From positions 1-24,773 of the IMG/VR virus record IMGVR_UViG_3300042691_027439: 24,773 nucleotides of DNA; one strand, 5' to 3'. The notes beneath the pieces were generated by a model. It worked only from the letters and a program-made list of their open reading frames with translations, was not told where the DNA came from and made no database searches. Position 1 is the stretch's first letter; each line of letters begins with the position of its first letter. This document shows positions 1,236 to 18,438 of this stretch, piece after piece. A program made the translations under genes and the position numbers. Source of the DNA: a virus.

Positions 1236-2174
1236 ATGAAAAATTTCCTACAATTCAATATGCGTGAGCCTAAAGAAGGCGAATGTAAGATATCATATTC
1301 TCAATTCTCCATGTATTCAACATGTCCAAAACATTGGGAATTGGCATATGTAAAGGGTTTAAGAACATTTAATCAAAGTATACATACATTGTTCGGTACA
1401 TGTTTACACGAAACACTGCAAGAGTATTTAACGGTAATGTATACAGAGTCTATTAAGAAAGCAGATAGTATTGATTTCAAAGCTGTATTAAAAGATAAAA
1501 TGTTTACTCAGTATAAAAAAGCCATGGAGCAAATGGGTAAACATTTTTCTAACAAGTTTGAACTCAATGAGTTTTATGATGACGGCGTAGCAATATTAGA
1601 ATGGATACGTAAACGTAGAGCTGAGTATTTTTCATCTAAACATGAAGAGCTTGTAGGTATCGAAGTTCCTATCTATCACCCAGTAGGTCATGAAGGTCGT
1701 CCAGTATTTATGATGGGATTCTTAGACGTTGTTATTCGCAATACCAAGACAAATAGAATAACTATATTAGATATCAAGACTAGCGGTAATGGCTGGAACA
1801 AATATCAAAAAGCAGATAAACTTAAAGCATCTCAATTAGTTTTATATAAAGAGTACTTTGGTGAACAGTTTGGCATTGACAAAGAGAGTATTGATATTAA
1901 ATACTTTATTGTTAAGCGCAAGTTAATCGAAGGTGCCATGTTTCCACAAAAGCGTGTACAAGAGTTTATTCCTGCTAGTGGTAAGCCTACTCGAAAGAAG
2001 TTGTTAACTGAAATTAATGCATTTGTAGAGTCGTCATTTAAAGAAGATGGCAGTTATAATACAGAACGTGAATATCCTGCTATCGCTGGTAAGAATTATA
2101 AACATTGCAAATATTGTGAATTTGCAGAAGATGATGAATTATGTCCAATGAAAAACAGAATAAAATTAAAATAG
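1236..2174 (+). CDS. PD-(D/E)XK nuclease, RecB/AddB/Cas4-like
   Basis: This 312-residue protein has the order of motifs of the RecB-type nuclease superfamily. It opens with YSQFSMYSTCPKHW (21-34), continues with GTCLHE giving H58, then GFLDV with D164, LDIKT with D179 and K181, and a Q200-x3-Y204 segment. These are the expected metal-binding and catalytic positions. C30 plus C291, C294 and C303 near the C-terminus form the split four-cysteine arrangement that holds a 4Fe-4S cluster in AddB, Dna2 and Cas4. It is therefore probably a single-strand DNA exonuclease used in phage recombination, replication or host DNA breakdown. It has no helicase domain. The gene is about 40 bases from its upstream neighbour and its end overlaps the longer possible start of the SLOG gene. 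Family assignment is strong; the phage role is inferred. Confidence 0.88.
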   Translation: MKNFLQFNMREPKEGECKISYSQFSMYSTCPKHWELAYVKGLRTFNQSIHTLFGTCLHETLQEYLTVMYTESIKKADSIDFKAVLKDKMFTQYKKAMEQMGKHFSNKFELNEFYDDGVAILEWIRKRRAEYFSSKHEELVGIEVPIYHPVGHEGRPVFMMGFLDVVIRNTKTNRITILDIKTSGNGWNKYQKADKLKASQLVLYKEYFGEQFGIDKESIDIKYFIVKRKLIEGAMFPQKRVQEFIPASGKPTRKKLLTEINAFVESSFKEDGSYNTEREYPAIAGKNYKHCKYCEFAEDDELCPMKNRIKLK

Positions 2175-2176
2175 GT

Positions 2177-2578
2177 ATGAAGGTAGCTATTATCGGAAGT
2201 CGAGAGTATGAAAACGTACGTAAGATTAAAGATATGTTATCTGAGTTACGTAGAAAGTTTGGCAATGAATTAGTGATAATATCAGGTGGAGCAAAAGACG
2301 GAGCAGATAAATACGCTAGGAAGTTTGCATTGGAGTTTGGAATTAAGTATAAAGAATTTAACCCAGCTCATACTCCTAGGAATTTATATAGTGCCATGTC
2401 AGACGAATATTATAGCAAACCATATCACGTAAGTCAATTTCATCATCGCAATCAATTGATTGCAAGAGATTGTGATATTATGGTTGCATTTGTTCCAAAA
2501 GATATTAAATCAACTGGGACAGTGAGTGCTATCAAATACGCAGAAAAACTAAATAAAAAGGTGGTTATCATATCGTAA
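2177..2578 (+). CDS. SLOG-fold protein (DprA/LOG/YspA-like)
   Basis: From the ATG at 2177 this is a 133-residue Rossmann-like protein. It begins MKVAIIGSRE, with GSR at 7-9. It then has SGGAKDGAD (36-44), an RN-x-LIARDCDIMVAF stretch, and STGT at 112-115. These are the nucleotide-binding signatures of the SLOG superfamily seen in YspA/DUF2493 proteins. Such proteins bind nucleotides or nucleotide-derived ligands; the exact activity here is unknown. An in-frame ATG at 2141 would add 12 residues and overlap the nuclease gene by 34 bases. I prefer 2177 because the fold starts there and it follows the preceding stop by two bases. Neither start has a clear Shine-Dalgarno sequence. It is the last gene before the glycan block. 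Confidence 0.8.
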   Translation: MKVAIIGSREYENVRKIKDMLSELRRKFGNELVIISGGAKDGADKYARKFALEFGIKYKEFNPAHTPRNLYSAMSDEYYSKPYHVSQFHHRNQLIARDCDIMVAFVPKDIKSTGTVSAIKYAEKLNKKVVIIS

Positions 2579-2582
2579 CCCA

Positions 2583-2597
2583 TATTTATAATAAATA
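2583..2597. promoter_or_regulatory. AT-only palindrome with late-promoter-like halves
   Basis: TATTTATAATAAATA is a perfect 7-base inverted repeat around a central A. Its left half reads TATAAATA on the minus strand (2583-2590), a perfect T4 late consensus. Its right half reads AATAAATA on the plus strand (2590-2597), one base off. A plus-strand start near 2603 would give a leader of about 19 bases before the ATG at 2622. It marks the entry to the glycan block. It may also simply be AT-rich spacer. Confidence 0.3.
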
Positions 2598-2611
2598 AAA
2601 AGAACGGTTAT

Positions 2612-2617
2612 AAGGAG
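2612..2617 (+). promoter_or_regulatory. Strong ribosome binding site (AAGGAG)
   Basis: AAGGAG lies four bases before the ATG at 2622. It is one of the few textbook Shine-Dalgarno sites in the window. It fixes the start of the first glycosyltransferase and suggests a high initiation rate for the first gene of the block. Confidence 0.75.
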
Positions 2618-2621
2618 TTTA

Positions 2622-4076
2622 ATGAATCAGTTACAGTTACCAAAATTACGTAAAATCGATCCAAACAGACCTAAGAAAAAGAAAATTCTTTTACTTTCCG
2701 ACGACCTTCGAATGCATTCTGGTATAGCCACAATGTCTCGAGAGTTTGTATTAGGTACCGTAAAAGAGTTTGATTGGGTACAATTAGGAGCAGCGATTAA
2801 TCATCCAGATGCAGGAAAAATGTTAGACTTATCTGCGGATGTTGCTAAAGAAACTGGCGTCGATGATGCCTCGGTTAAATTAATGCCATATAATGGATAT
2901 GGTGATGCGAATGTATTAAATTATTTGATTAATACAGAAAAACCAGATGCTATATTACATTTTACAGATCCTAGATTCTGGGGATGGTTGTATCAATTAG
3001 AACATAGTGTTCGTCAACATATTCCAATAATGTATTATAACATATGGGATGATTTGCCATATCCTCATTGGAATGAACCATTTTATGAGTCATGTGATTT
3101 AATTATGAATATATCACGCCAGACTCAAAACATTGTTAAGAATGTGTTGCGCAAATTTCCTAAAGAAGAATGGGCAGTACAGTATGTACCACATGGTATC
3201 AATGAAACAAAATACTTTCCAATTAACAAAGAACATGAACAGTATACTGAGTTTGAAAAATTTAGTACTGATTTTAAGTCTAAAAATGATATTGACTTTG
3301 TAGTATTCTGGAACAATCGTAATATCAGAAGAAAACAACCAGGTGATTTAATTCTAGCATATAAATCATTCTGTGATAAATTACCAAAAGAAAAAGCCAA
3401 TAAATGTGCTTTGCTAATGCATACTCAGCCCGTAGATGAAAATGGTACGGATTTATTTGCTGTTAAAAATGCTATTTGTCCTAATTATAAAGTAATTTTT
3501 AGTGATCGCGCCGTTGATAATAAAACTATGAACTTTTATTATAACATGGCAGATGTAACTGTTAATATTGCATCTAACGAAGGATTTGGTTTATCAGGCG
3601 CAGAATCATTGATGGCAGGAACACCTATCATTAATAATGTAACTGGTGGTCTGCAAGATCATTGTCGGTTCGAAGATGAGTCAGGTAATTGGATTGCATT
3701 TACGACAGAGTTTCCTAGTAACCATAATGGTAAGTATACTAAATGTGGCCCATGGGCAAAACCAGTATTTCCAACTAATAGATCGCTTCAGGGTTCTATT
3801 CCTACACCATATATCTTTGATGATCGTGTTCGATTTGAAGATGTAGCAGATGCTATTATATATTGGTATGAAATGTCGCCAGACCAAAGAAAAGAAAATG
3901 GATTGAAAGGACATGCGTGGGTAAATGGTAAAGAATCAATGATGTCGGCCCGTCGTATGAGTGAGCGTTTTATTGAATGTATTAATACATGTTTAACAAA
4001 CTGGACTCCAAGAAAACGATTTACATTATTTAAAGTAGAACAAGAACCAAAATTTGATAAAGTAGGAATTATATGA
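2622..4076 (+). CDS. GT-B glycosyltransferase (group 1, GT4-like)
   Basis: This 484-residue protein looks like a retaining GT-B glycosyltransferase. The N-terminal domain begins at about residue 20 with KKILLLSDDLRMHSGIA, where the Gly contributes to the usual acceptor-side loop. The second domain holds the hallmark E-x7-E: E320 and E328 within NEGFGLSGAESLMAGTP, the donor-nucleotide site of GT4-type enzymes. The first 20 residues are an extra basic tail that includes LPKLRKI at 6-12, a peptide found again twice at the C-terminus of the next gene. The start is set by AAGGAG just upstream, and the gene ends in an ATGA overlap with the next glycosyltransferase. Sugar and acceptor cannot be told from sequence. 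The basic tail may dock the enzyme to a partner. Confidence 0.85.
   Translation: MNQLQLPKLRKIDPNRPKKKKILLLSDDLRMHSGIATMSREFVLGTVKEFDWVQLGAAINHPDAGKMLDLSADVAKETGVDDASVKLMPYNGYGDANVLNYLINTEKPDAILHFTDPRFWGWLYQLEHSVRQHIPIMYYNIWDDLPYPHWNEPFYESCDLIMNISRQTQNIVKNVLRKFPKEEWAVQYVPHGINETKYFPINKEHEQYTEFEKFSTDFKSKNDIDFVVFWNNRNIRRKQPGDLILAYKSFCDKLPKEKANKCALLMHTQPVDENGTDLFAVKNAICPNYKVIFSDRAVDNKTMNFYYNMADVTVNIASNEGFGLSGAESLMAGTPIINNVTGGLQDHCRFEDESGNWIAFTTEFPSNHNGKYTKCGPWAKPVFPTNRSLQGSIPTPYIFDDRVRFEDVADAIIYWYEMSPDQRKENGLKGHAWVNGKESMMSARRMSERFIECINTCLTNWTPRKRFTLFKVEQEPKFDKVGII
2637..2657 (+). repeat. LPKL(K/R)K peptide motif, copy 1
   Basis: These codons encode LPKLRKI (residues 6-12 of the first glycosyltransferase), preceded by LQ. 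The same peptide, as LPKLKKV, occurs twice near the end of the next gene. Synonymous codons differ between the copies, so the likeness is at protein level. Confidence 0.7.
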
Positions 4077-5401
4077 AACCATTTGTAGTAGTACAAGGTC
4101 CAGTAGCGACCAGATCTGGTTATGGAAATCACACTCGAGATTTAGTAACTAGTTTAATTAAATCAGATAAGTATGATATTCAGATTGTTTCATTACCATG
4201 GGGAAATACTCCTATGGATGCATTGGAACCTAATAACACTGATCATCAGGAAATAATGAAACGCGTTGCTGTACAAAACATTACACGACAGCCTGATGTA
4301 TTTATACAGATATCTATTCCAAATGAGTTTCAACCGCATGGTAAGTATAATATTGGCGTTACCGCTGGTATTGAAACAGATCAAGTATCAGCTGAGTTCA
4401 TCGAAGGTTGTAATCGTATGAATTTAATTCTTACAACATCTGAACATTCTAAGCAAGGTTTTTTAAATTCAACATATGAGAAACGAGATAAAAATACCAA
4501 TCAATCTTTAGGTACACTTCGTTTAGAAAAACCAATTGAAGTTCTTTTTGAAGGCGTAGATTTGAATCTATATACAAAGACCAATGATGTCAATGAACTA
4601 GTGTTAAATGAACTCAATTCAATAAAAGAAGGGTTCAATTTCTTATTTGTAGGACATTGGTTGAAAGGAGAGTTTGGAGCCGATCGTAAAGATATTGGAA
4701 TGCTTATTAAAACGTTTTGTGAAGCATTTAAAAATAAGTCATCGCAAAACAAACCAGGCCTGGTTATTAAGACTAGTCATGCCACATTTAGTATTATGGA
4801 CCGAGAAGAAATTATGAAAAAGATTAACATAATAACTGCTCCATATGGCAACAATGCTCCAAGTATTTATTTATTACATGGTGACTTAACTGATGATCAG
4901 ATGAATAGTCTATATAACCATCCAAAGGTTAAAGCTATGGTATCATTTACACATGGTGAGGGGTATGGTCGTCCATTATTAGAATTTACATTATCTGAAA
5001 AGCCTGTTATTGCAAGTAACTGGTCTGGTCATATTGATTTCCTAAAGCATGCCACTTTATTACCTGGAGAGATTAAAGAAGTGCATCATTCCGCGACAGA
5101 TAATTGGATTGTCAAAGGAAGTAAATGGTTTACTGTTAACTACGTATATGCTATATCAATATTACGTGACGTCATTGATAACTATAAAACATATCTTAAT
5201 ACAGCGAAGCGTCAAGCATATGTATCTCGTACTGAGTTTAATCTAGATAAAATGGCAGAAAAGTTTTGTGAGTATGTTGATGCAGGCGTTAATAGCGTTC
5301 CTAAGCAAGTACAATTACAATTACCTAAATTAAAGAAAGTTGGAGAGACTACAGAGGTTCCAAAGATTACATTACCAAAACTTAAAAAGGTTGAAGCATG
5401 A
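4073..5401 (+). CDS. GT-B glycosyltransferase with C-terminal LPKLKK tail
   Basis: This 442-residue protein is a second GT-B type glycosyltransferase. Its N-terminal domain opens with FVVVQGPVATRSGYGNHTRD, which carries the Gly-rich loop of group 1 enzymes, and the donor domain has E296 and E304 in the E-x7-E arrangement (THGEGYGRPLLE). The last 30 residues lie outside the fold and contain LPKLKKV twice, at 417-423 and 434-440. The same peptide sits at the N-terminus of the preceding glycosyltransferase, so the two probably share a binding partner or bind each other. It starts in an ATGA overlap with the previous gene and ends in another ATGA. The sugar donor is unknown. The pairing and the shared motif suggest that the two enzymes act as a unit. 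Confidence 0.83.
   Translation: MKPFVVVQGPVATRSGYGNHTRDLVTSLIKSDKYDIQIVSLPWGNTPMDALEPNNTDHQEIMKRVAVQNITRQPDVFIQISIPNEFQPHGKYNIGVTAGIETDQVSAEFIEGCNRMNLILTTSEHSKQGFLNSTYEKRDKNTNQSLGTLRLEKPIEVLFEGVDLNLYTKTNDVNELVLNELNSIKEGFNFLFVGHWLKGEFGADRKDIGMLIKTFCEAFKNKSSQNKPGLVIKTSHATFSIMDREEIMKKINIITAPYGNNAPSIYLLHGDLTDDQMNSLYNHPKVKAMVSFTHGEGYGRPLLEFTLSEKPVIASNWSGHIDFLKHATLLPGEIKEVHHSATDNWIVKGSKWFTVNYVYAISILRDVIDNYKTYLNTAKRQAYVSRTEFNLDKMAEKFCEYVDAGVNSVPKQVQLQLPKLKKVGETTEVPKITLPKLKKVEA
5321..5341 (+). repeat. LPKLKKV peptide motif, copy 2
   Basis: These codons encode LPKLKKV at residues 417-423, preceded by LQ as in copy 1. The codons differ at synonymous positions from the copies at 2637 and 5372. Confidence 0.7.
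5372..5392 (+). repeat. LPKLKKV peptide motif, copy 3
   Basis: These codons encode LPKLKKV at residues 434-440, preceded by IT and followed by the final two residues. It is 51 bases from copy 2, with a Thr/Glu-rich linker between them. Confidence 0.7.
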
Positions 5402-5865
5402 GTTTATTAAAAGCAGAGTATGATGAAGTATCACCAATTACAGGTAATACTTGTGTGTTAGTCGAAGCAATGGATAGCGGCATGAATTCATACATATGTA
5501 TGGAATCGGGTTATGTTAGTAACGAATATTTTAAAGTAGACAGTGAAATAGTCGAACAACATGAGCAAACCTTATCACAATTAATGCGTGATGTAAAATA
5601 TATTGATGAGTCTCGTGGGTTAGTATGGTATCCGGCATATATGCAATTTGAAAATATGGTATTGTATTGTGCTGGTACTAGTAAAGCAGATTTAGAATGG
5701 GATGTTGCATTTATAGTAGCAGTCGAAGCTTCAGAGAAAGAAAAATACCCAGTCCCAGGTAAGCCAGATGAATATTTTCAGTATCGTATTGATGTTGATA
5801 ATGCAGAACGATTTATAACATTTTCGGAAGCCATGGATAAATTATATGCTAATGTTTCGATATAA
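5398..5865 (+). CDS. Conserved-looking phage protein of unknown function
   Basis: I do not recognise a characterised family for this 155-residue acidic protein. It has no signal peptide or membrane segment. The N-terminal part (SPITGNTCVL, then SYICMESGYVSNEYFK) is like short proteins I associate with marine T4-like phages. The middle has WYPAYMQFENMVLYCAG, and a C-terminal half rich in acidic and aromatic residues looks alpha/beta. Its start overlaps the previous glycosyltransferase stop in an ATGA, so it is probably made with that enzyme. It is the only gene between the two motif-bearing glycosyltransferases and the rest of the sugar block without an enzymatic signature, which makes it a candidate partner or adaptor. 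That last point is inference only. Confidence 0.7.
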   Translation: MSLLKAEYDEVSPITGNTCVLVEAMDSGMNSYICMESGYVSNEYFKVDSEIVEQHEQTLSQLMRDVKYIDESRGLVWYPAYMQFENMVLYCAGTSKADLEWDVAFIVAVEASEKEKYPVPGKPDEYFQYRIDVDNAERFITFSEAMDKLYANVSI

Positions 5866-5902: not shown

Positions 5903-6514
5903 ATGAAAATTAGTTATGCGATAACAGTTTGTAACGAATTGGAGGAAATTAAACGTCTAATTCCTTTTCTTTTAGAACATAAACGTACTGAAGATGAAAT
6001 TGTTGTTTTATGGGATGAAAATGGTGATCTTAAAGTTTGGGAATATGTGATTAGTATTCCTGAACCTAGACATTTTAAAGATTACTTCAATAAAAATTTT
6101 GCAGACTGGAAAAACAAATTATCATTAATTTGTAAAGGTGATTACATCTTCCAAATTGATGCTGATGAAATACCCAATGAGTACCTAATTGAATCATTAC
6201 CCGAAATATTAGAAACAAATTCTCAAGTAGAAGCATATGTTGTACCTAGAGTAAATACAGTAGAAGGTTTAACTCAAGAACATATACAAAAATGGGGATG
6301 GCATGTTAATGAAAATGGATGGATAAATTGGCCAGATTATCAATGGAGGATATATAAAAATACTCCTGATGTTAAATGGAAAAATAAAGTACATGAAGTA
6401 TTAGATGGATATAAAACTATGGCTCAACTTCCAGCATATGAAGATTTATCTTTATATCATCCTAAAACAATAGAAAGACAAGAAAAACAAAACAATTATT
6501 ATAATACATTATGA
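5903..6514 (+). CDS. GT-A glycosyltransferase, GT2-like
   Basis: This 203-residue protein is a short family 2-like glycosyltransferase. It opens with ISYAITVCNELEEI, the usual first strand of the GT-A fold, and has the metal-binding DxD in QIDADE (D86 and D88) following a KGDYIF segment. The C-terminus (YHPKTIERQEKQNNYYNTL) resembles the ends of other phage and bacterial members I recall, so the protein looks complete despite its small size. No membrane segment is present. A 37-base AT-rich gap separates it from the upstream gene, and no Shine-Dalgarno sequence is obvious. The following gene begins 15 bases after its stop. Donor and acceptor are unknown. Confidence 0.82.
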   Translation: MKISYAITVCNELEEIKRLIPFLLEHKRTEDEIVVLWDENGDLKVWEYVISIPEPRHFKDYFNKNFADWKNKLSLICKGDYIFQIDADEIPNEYLIESLPEILETNSQVEAYVVPRVNTVEGLTQEHIQKWGWHVNENGWINWPDYQWRIYKNTPDVKWKNKVHEVLDGYKTMAQLPAYEDLSLYHPKTIERQEKQNNYYNTL

Positions 6515-18087: not shown

Positions 18088-18438
18088 ATGAAAATGCCAA
18101 TTAGTGAAATTGCAGATCGTTATTCAATTGCATTGCTAAAACGAGATAGAGCTAATGCAGATAATCAGGTAGAACTTGATACATTATATACAGAGTTAGA
18201 TAATTATGCTAGTTCCATGGAATTTGTACATAAGCTTAAAGAAGTTAATGGTAAAATTTGGGACTTAGAATCTGATATTAGAAAAGGAAAAGAAGCCGAA
18301 TTAGGATTAGAAGAAGTAGGTCGACGTGCAATTGCAATTCGTGAACTTAATAAAATTCGTGTAGGTTATAAAAATGAAATGGTTAAAATCTACAATGAAG
18401 GGTTTGAAGATATAAAGATGAATCATGCCAGTGCCTAA
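18088..18438 (+). CDS. DUF6165-like helical protein
   Basis: This 116-residue protein is almost entirely helical and charged, and follows the layout of DUF6165: an ISEIADRYSIALLKRDR opening, a KLKEVNGKIWDLESDIRKG middle, and an IRELNKIRVGYKNEMVKIYN end. Members are found in bacterial LPS and capsule gene clusters and in phages; no activity is established that I know of. It may form a helical-bundle scaffold for sugar enzymes, though this is a guess. AAGGAAA lies ahead of the ATG. Its end overlaps the deacetylase gene by 14 bases. No signal peptide or membrane segment is present. Confidence 0.65.
   Translation: MKMPISEIADRYSIALLKRDRANADNQVELDTLYTELDNYASSMEFVHKLKEVNGKIWDLESDIRKGKEAELGLEEVGRRAIAIRELNKIRVGYKNEMVKIYNEGFEDIKMNHASA

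Follow-up and report, generated by a model that had tools for sequence, protein, structure and literature searches.

A short peptide at the termini of neighbouring phage glycosyltransferases as a probable protein-docking tag

Introduction

Why do two adjacent glycosyltransferase genes, located within a sugar-synthesis and transfer operon of an uncultured T4-like phage, encode proteins that carry nearly the same heptapeptide at opposite ends of the chain? In a preliminary description of this DNA, the copies were taken as docking tags, possibly for a shared scaffold, with the gene starting at 5398 and a DUF6165-like protein as possible partners. The window examined here is the entire stretch of 24,773 nucleotides, and the genes described below between 2622 and 6514 are on its plus strand.

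Results

The two glycosyltransferases and the tag copies

The first enzyme (GT1; positions 2622-4076; 484 aa) and the second enzyme (GT2; 4073-5401; 442 aa) are both GT4-like glycosyltransferases matching PHROG 2170 (E 2.7e-14 and 4.2e-19, respectively), and their PF00534 scores of 25.2 bits (GT1) and 19.8 bits (GT2) are below the gathering cut-off of 26.4. The start of GT1 is sound, because the ATG at 2622 is preceded by the Shine-Dalgarno-like sequence AAGGAG. The EX7E motif of GT4 glycosyltransferases is present in both, as E320 and E328 in GT1 (both invariant in 73 sequences) and as E296 (invariant) and E304 (at least 90%) in 89 sequences of GT2. The AlphaFold model of GT2 (mean pLDDT 91.6; core above 90) has a predicted GT-B fold, and its best Foldseek match is 3oy2 (E 3.8e-18), with MshA, BshA and HepE also matched; the GT-B fold and EX7E are thus common to GT2 and to viral GT4 enzymes such as the PBCV NY2A enzyme 3oy2. 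The final helix of this model stops at residue 408, and residues 409-442 (5297-5398) form a C-terminal tail predicted to be disordered (pLDDT 65, 44, 46 and 46 over the last four blocks), which is without a helix in the monomer model, where the confidence for the tail is low. The terminal position and the predicted disorder are features expected of a linear motif.

The peptide copies agree to the base with the preliminary description, viz. LPKLRKI in GT1 (residues 6-12; 2637-2657) and LPKLKKV twice in GT2 (residues 417-423, 5321-5341, and residues 434-440, 5372-5392). Missed in that description was the residue at position -2, which is hydrophobic each time (L4, L415 and I432), and the fuller consensus, as read from the sequences, is phi-x-[LM]-P-K-[LM]-K-x-phi. 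For the strict motif [LI]P[KR]L[KR]K[VILM], within-protein shuffling expects 0.0 occurrences in the window, against 3 observed in 2 of its 34 ORFs (GT1 and GT2). In ten sets consisting of the window, 8 large contigs and the Flavobacterium phage immuto (1,566 ORFs), it is found 20 times in 13 ORFs, each of them a GT1 or a GT2, and the random scatter over unrelated proteins of these phages that would have spoken against a tag is therefore not seen. A relaxed motif matched 2 further ORFs, internally in an ORF of locus L211 (LPKINKV) and in a 99-aa protein of immuto, close to its end (VPSIKKV), and these matches were taken as chance. The synonymous codons differ between the copies, as had been pointed out. 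In 91 relatives with at least two exact LPKLKK copies, the first and the last differ at a mean of 1.97 of 6 codons, the expectation for codons drawn independently being 2.96, and 195 copies are written in 65 different DNA spellings.

Conservation of the tail of GT2

The tagged related phages number about a hundred. GT2 relatives were also sampled without reference to the tail, with scan peptides taken from the enzyme core, which yielded 36 non-redundant sequences whose ends are complete. The tail core [LM]Px[LIM] is kept in 35 of these, at identities down to 42%, so that the absence from homologous glycosyltransferases which had been set as a refutation is not observed. In the tail-blind alignment of 26 sequences L417 and P418 are invariant, and L434, P435, K436, L437 and K439 are each conserved at 90% or more in an alignment of 89 sequences. 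The pN/pS ratios for 36 pairs, which are rough as pS is near saturation, are 0.151 for the motif, 0.346 for the enzyme core and 0.679 for the 17 codons preceding the motif. The motif is thus more conserved at the protein level than its surroundings, as is characteristic of a linear motif, and purifying selection acts more strongly on the tail core than on the enzyme. Loci chosen by the tandem-motif scan were excluded from the tail-core count and from the pN/pS statistics, and the conservation rests on the alignments of 26 and 89 sequences and on the 36 GT2 rather than on a sequence logo, which is partly circular because its pattern requires L/M/I, P and L/I/M.

The tandem-motif scan of DNA found GT2 only (80/80 among the matches listed, of at least 119 stretches), and in 129 loci the strict motif is present in 135 of 1,803 ORFs, comprising 107 GT2, 27 GT1 and 1 zinc-ribbon protein. 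In Microcystis phage Mel-JY01, the sole cultured relative with a non-Bacteroidota host and hence a single case, the tail of GT2 is degenerate (MPSLSN, FPALKKH).

The tag on GT1 and on the neighbouring zinc-ribbon protein

All 71 loci that reach 2.5 kb upstream of GT2 contain the GT1 gene. Of the full-length GT1 recovered by the tail-blind scan, 20 of 21 keep the tag, as do 25 of the 74 GT1 of the tree set, and among tandem-selected loci the strict motif is found in 12 of 62 readable N-termini. On the tree, from whose rows the N-terminal part was removed, the GT1 tag is explained by 3 changes (one main clade and two sporadic cases). The GT1 of L060 resembles the main clade over its whole N-terminus, a similarity likely due to recombination, and the tag of L242 may have been gained independently. 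The conserved block in GT1 extends beyond the tag (DPNKPKKKK), and its conservation is thus not confined to the tag. An intron splitting GT1 was also considered and rejected: Rfam at the gathering threshold detected nothing in 7 loci, and a split gene is likelier since the halves have their own starts.

The gene at 5398-5865 encodes a 155-aa orphan of a zinc-ribbon family which is untagged in the window. This family is found in 81/95 loci, and in 70 of the 78 loci with enough flank; the 8 loci where it is missing are all from tagged phages. However, in another clade the orphan itself is C-terminally tagged (L061, its near-copies L144, L148 and L255-L257, and L389), and variant tags are seen in L122, L254 and L249. 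This gene, suggested earlier as a partner, is a conserved neighbour, yet with its own tag in one clade and its absence elsewhere it looks like a fellow client and not a receptor. Its AlphaFold model has a pLDDT of 93.7, and comparisons with the PDB gave nothing significant (best Foldseek E 0.56; best Z 3.6 over 43 residues in a second structure comparison; best E 0.2 in a profile search of PDB sequences), so that its function cannot be read from the fold. Pfam searches with 74 members gave only weak zinc-ribbon-like matches, the commonest being Lar (12/74; best E 1.6e-5), and the tagged form has no match in the phages collection. The next gene, an untagged GT family 2 glycosyltransferase (5903-6514; Pfam PF00535, E 8.1e-8), is an invariable neighbour, as all 40 loci that reach 3.5 kb downstream of GT2 contain it. 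The other suggested partner, the DUF6165-like ORF at 18088, has no relative in loci L001-L041, most of which are too short to reach its position but which include the whole genome of the tagged phage immuto, and it is therefore not a conserved partner.

An unrelated small protein with the same tag

A phi-x-[LM]PK[LM]K-type tag also ends a small orphan protein of 80-100 residues, unrelated to the tagged glycosyltransferases, in unrelated small phages. In a scan made with the protein body only, [LM]P[KE][LMI]K was present at 47 of 48 distinct C-ends; position 6 varies, whereas L-P-K-L-K is constant. ORFs with a terminal tag number 53 in the small phages (1,036 ORFs) and 7 in the T4-like set (1,674 ORFs), where shuffled tails expect 0.0 and 0.05, respectively. 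The conserved neighbourhood of the tagged orphan lacks a glycosyltransferase, and no gene was seen to be present in all loci of both phage groups. The terminase of the small phages is 37-38% identical to those of Bacteroides/Phocaeicola phages and, judged from this, they probably infect Bacteroidota. The family has no match in the phages collection; none was found in 395 Bacteroidota genomes either, a result that shows little because the search was without a positive control. Among proteins ending in phi-x-LPKLK-x-phi-K, there are also two similar ORFs of another kind (in L538 and one other locus).

On the host side, [LF]x[LF]PK[LF]KK[VIM] gave 16 matches (15 genomes) in 299 Flavobacteriaceae genomes, fewer than the 29 obtained with the reversed control pattern, and none of the 16 terminates a genuine ORF. 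A host receptor would thus be without an evident host ligand of this sequence in these genomes. The assignment of hosts is based on one cultured Flavobacterium phage, the terminase comparison and unreliable MAG bins.

Discussion

The conservation of the peptide in a disordered tail, its duplication, and its occurrence at the termini of three neighbours and of an unrelated protein support the earlier idea of a docking tag, and based on the sequences we consider a protein-docking role of some kind probable for it (about 0.8). Its carriers (glycosyltransferases, a zinc-ribbon orphan and a small orphan family) are unrelated proteins. A cause at the nucleotide level, e.g. a Shine-Dalgarno sequence serving the next gene, which overlaps GT2 (ATGA at 5398), could be suggested by the last copy, which encodes AAAAAGG just 5' of the next ATG and in which K6 prefers AAG (46/73). 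However, this location is not shared by copy 1, the N-terminal copy of GT1 or the small-family copies, both GT2 copies vary in their synonymous codons, and pS is equal in motif (0.67) and core (0.66); as a general cause it is refuted and its probability is very slight. Slighter still is that of shared ancestry of GT1 and GT2, or chance: although both enzymes match one PHROG, the tag precedes the fold in GT1 and follows it in GT2, 49 of the 74 GT1 in the tree lack the tag, and shuffling does not reproduce it, by which these sources are likewise refuted. An amphipathic basic peptide that binds an anionic membrane or nucleic acid, and not a protein, would agree with the three basic and three hydrophobic residues of the motif, and GT4 enzymes often bind membranes via basic-hydrophobic patches. 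It is nevertheless improbable, as the order and identity of the residues are fixed, including the invariant P418, of which a membrane patch needs neither, and as position 6, but not L-P-K-L-K, varies in the small family.

If the tag binds a protein, which protein must be asked. That it binds a glycosylated structural protein of the phage is rather more doubtful than binding to a membrane: the operon is one of sugar synthesis and transfer, and virion glycosylation by phage enzymes has precedent, but the tagged small phages have other structural genes, with only two structural-region ORFs weakly similar. A scaffold within the operon, i.e. a phage-encoded partner (best candidates: the family 2 glycosyltransferase or GT1 itself) holding GT1, GT2 and the zinc-ribbon protein as a glycosylation complex, is unlikely but deserves more weight than the alternatives above. 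It accords with the constant company of GT1, the family 2 gene and, in most loci, the zinc-ribbon gene, with the restriction of the tag within T4-like phages to the products of these adjacent genes, and with its 3 changes on the GT1 tree and gain by the zinc-ribbon gene in another clade. The shared scaffold of the preliminary description is thus possible within the operon, but it is weakened because small phages that share no operon, and lack a glycosyltransferase in the conserved neighbourhood, tag an unrelated protein. The chances are about even that the tag instead binds one common partner, probably encoded by the host. The flexible terminal tails would be bound as peptides by one specific partner protein, with two or three copies on GT2 giving avidity. 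If the same partner is read in both phage groups, a host protein, probably of Bacteroidota, would be likelier than an operon product; the glycosyltransferases would then be gathered in one place, and the sugar chain of GT1, GT2 and the family 2 enzyme made at the location of the partner. In a more tentative reading, less likely than not, unrelated Bacteroidota phages would have converged on, or exchanged, a phi-x-LPKLK address tag read by one host receptor. They would append it in 1-3 copies to enzymes and small effectors to bring these to the receptor, and it would decay where the host lacks the receptor (Mel-JY01). The tail may have been acquired by recombination transfer between the phage groups.

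Encapsulation peptides of bacterial microcompartments are described as similarly short, terminal and flexibly linked, and they direct enzymes of a single gene cluster to one place (PMC11157265, PMC12339742, PMC7221423); the present tag resembles them as a short terminal peptide on enzymes of one gene cluster. However, it is a fixed motif of 7-9 residues in a tail predicted, at low confidence, to be without structure, whereas those peptides form short helices and bind to shell proteins; a shell is not known from the present phages. The cargo-loading peptides of encapsulins are likewise short, C-terminal and recognised by one partner, but their sequence differs and an encapsulin is not implied here; microcompartment peptides, for their part, occur at either terminus. 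As with short linear docking motifs in general, the tag has few fixed positions in a disordered setting, is repeated and is borne by unrelated proteins, though we know of no linear-motif class with this consensus and of no characterised GT4 enzyme with such a tag. No paper on LPKLKKV, LPKLKK or LPKLRK was found in the open-access PMC literature.

Phage proteins whose role is unknown are usually studied by their fold, whereas the conserved tail peptide can itself serve as bait. As it marks glycosyltransferases in one phage group and an orphan protein in another, unrelated group, a single pull-down could disclose a target shared by many uncultured phages, and could explain where in the infected cell phage sugar transfer takes place. 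The docking idea is testable now with the cultured Flavobacterium phage immuto, whose GT2 has retained three copies of the tag, one of them imperfect.

Conservation of the tag at the end of GT2

The two neighbouring GT4-like glycosyltransferases of the window, GT1 (2622-4076) and GT2 (4073-5401), carry copies of LPKL(K/R)K(V/I) exactly where the preliminary description placed them, viz. LPKLRKI at residues 6-12 of GT1 and LPKLKKV at residues 417-423 and 434-440 of GT2, and position -2 of all three copies is also hydrophobic (L4, L415 and I432). Queries with peptides from the GT2 core, none of them from the tail, yielded 34 relatives from viral contigs and 15 further relatives from genome contigs, the latter all within metagenome-assembled bins. 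Inclusive of the window, 44 GT2 sequences have a complete C-terminal end and 36 are non-redundant, with identity to the window's protein down to 42%. In 35 of these 36, one to three copies of an [LM]Px[LIM] core, mostly LPKLKK[VIL], are present at the end. The lone exception (L003, 3885-5186) has the tail LPKHKYKYKYKYKYKF, in which KYKYKYKY replaces the sequence after the first LPK, a change to simple repeats at the gene end. In an alignment of 26 sequences, chosen irrespective of the tail, L417 and P418 never vary, and conservation reaches 90% at K419, L420 and K439. The spacer between the copies varies in sequence and length, and the copies recur at 8-residue intervals both in the most distant clade (LPKLKKLELPTLKKIELPTLKKV) and in Flavobacterium phage immuto (LPTLKKIELPQTKKVEIPRLKKL).

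For 10 close non-redundant GT2 relatives (36 usable pairs), pN/pS was 0.151 in the motif, 0.346 in the enzyme core and 0.679 in the 17 codons preceding the motif, and when motif-selected loci were included (20 sequences, 171 pairs) the corresponding values were 0.142, 0.351 and 0.652; with pS at about 0.6-0.7, near saturation, the ratios are only approximate, yet the order among them is clear. Based on this order and on the 65 DNA spellings seen among 195 LPKLKK copies, it is the peptide and not the DNA that is kept. The AlphaFold model of GT2 (89 sequences; mean pLDDT 91.6) has a GT-B fold, and its nearest solved structures are GT4 enzymes, the top one being a chlorella-virus glycosyltransferase (3oy2). 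The final helix of the model stops at residue 408 and the tail has a pLDDT of 44-65. Strong conservation together with predicted disorder is what a docking motif would look like.

Specificity of the tag

The strict motif, [LI]P[KR]L[KR]K[VILM], occurs 20 times in the 1,566 ORFs of a set made up of the window, the immuto genome and eight large phage contigs of 85-174 kb, and all 13 ORFs concerned are GT1 or GT2; shuffled window proteins gave no match. Among the 1,803 ORFs of 129 loci, 135 carry it (107 GT2, 27 GT1 and one other). Viral contigs were also scanned, without regard to the protein, for paired copies at the tail spacing; at least 119 stretches matched, and all 80 among the matches listed are GT2 tails. 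For the N-terminal form, 100 stretches were found, and the 80 listed comprise 61 GT1, one classed as GT2 and 18 in no or a short ORF. The pattern LxLPKLKK[VI]x-stop matched 84 stretches, of which the 80 analysed are 66 GT2, four zinc-ribbon proteins, one classed as GT1, two short ORFs and seven members of a family of small orphan proteins. With phi-x-LPKLK-x-phi-K-stop (phi, hydrophobic), 48 of the 80 analysed belong to this small orphan family, 20 are GT2, 10 are short and two are others. A 79-aa protein ending in VLLPKLKKLK (L538), one of two such in the scan, lies outside both families and is either a chance match or an additional carrier.

Matches to the tag in 299 Flavobacteriaceae genomes numbered 16, versus 29 for the reversed pattern, and none of the 16 is at a protein end; the tag, in the form tested, is no common host signal. 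Cultured phages with GT2 are of two kinds, viz. immuto, with three copies, one imperfect, and Mel-JY01, a phage of the cyanobacterium Microcystis, whose tail is degenerate (MPSLSN, FPALKKH). Two contigs of one Pelagibacter MAG (L479 and L481) each carry a tagged GT2 gene, and the two genes differ; they probably come from two phages, which shows that such bins are unreliable for host assignment.

An unrelated carrier and the interpretation of the tag

The small orphan proteins (about 80-100 residues; L354, L356, L405 and L426-L478) are unrelated to the GT1, GT2 and zinc-ribbon carriers and have no match among 50,697 phage records. In four members, whose bodies share 38-45% identity with the first, the C-terminus is in each case LPKLKK[VI] plus one residue. 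Searches confined to their bodies (residues 1-65) recovered 57 loci. Of the 48 distinct C-terminal ends among them, 47 finish in an [LM]P[KE][LMI]K core (LPKLKK or LPKLKR in seven), preceded by a proline/glutamine-rich linker. Instead of glycosyltransferases, the neighbouring genes encode a small cysteine protein, a sigma-like factor and a zinc protein. The terminase of these phages is closest to those of Bacteroides and Phocaeicola phages, and only scattered genes are common to them and the T4-like phages, the window's group.

The simplest account is that the tag would be a short linear docking motif read by a specific partner. The earlier proposal of docking tags thus stands, as the GT2 tail is conserved yet predicted to be disordered and the same tag is present on unrelated proteins. 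The other part of that proposal, a shared scaffold, was the natural reading before the small orphan family was found, and a scaffold within the glycosylation operon remains a rival; however, it is weakened because phages that lack this operon carry the same tag at the end of a different protein. For this reason a partner shared by the T4-like and small-orphan phages has become the likelier reading, and the easiest such partner would be a host protein. LPKLKKV, LPKLKK and LPKLRK do not occur in the open-access literature searched, which comprised 5.39 million papers. By function, the closest kinds of peptide are microcompartment encapsulation peptides and encapsulin cargo peptides; the tag is not claimed to belong to either.

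Other genes of the operon

Where the flank is long enough, GT1 (71 of 71 loci) and the family-2 glycosyltransferase (40 of 40; 5903-6514 in the window) are always present, and the zinc-ribbon gene directly after GT2 is present in 70 of 78 loci. The DUF6165-like ORF, also suggested earlier as a partner, is not a conserved one, since no other locus compared, including the whole immuto genome, has it, most of the other loci being too short to tell; the name is that of the preliminary description, and Pfam gave no match.

The tagged GT1 proteins form 25 of 74 rows in a tree built without the N-terminal part, and their distribution on it requires three changes, one for a clade of 23 rows and one each for L060 and L242. 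In the L060 protein (1754-3187), the first 45 residues, tag included, look like those of another clade, and on this sequence likeness they were likely acquired by recombination.

The sole strict-motif carrier in the 129 loci that is not a glycosyltransferase is a homologue of the window's 5398-5865 gene, directly after GT2. This zinc-ribbon protein of L061 (166 aa) ends in IELKLPKLKKVD and has near-copies in L144, L148 and L255-L257. The gene after GT2 in L389 is tagged too, and variants are seen in L122 (LELPKLKKTN), L254 (EIKFPKLKKRK) and L249 (SALPKLNLDDIDG). Across its 74 aligned members, which have a mean column identity of 31%, the orphan family mostly retains CxxC...CxxC, part of which is lost in the window's member and its clade. 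The fold of the window's product is predicted confidently, and a search of the PDB gave no clear match.

In L021-L033 and L040 (Mel-JY01), separate ORFs encode the two GT-B halves of GT1 (residues about 1-176 and 181-484), and several lineages share the position of the split; the halves are separated by about 850 bases with three small ORFs in L030 and by one ORF in L031. Directly upstream of GT1 in the window lies a SLOG/YspA-like nucleotide-sensing ORF (2141-2578), whose family is present in 52 of 95 loci.
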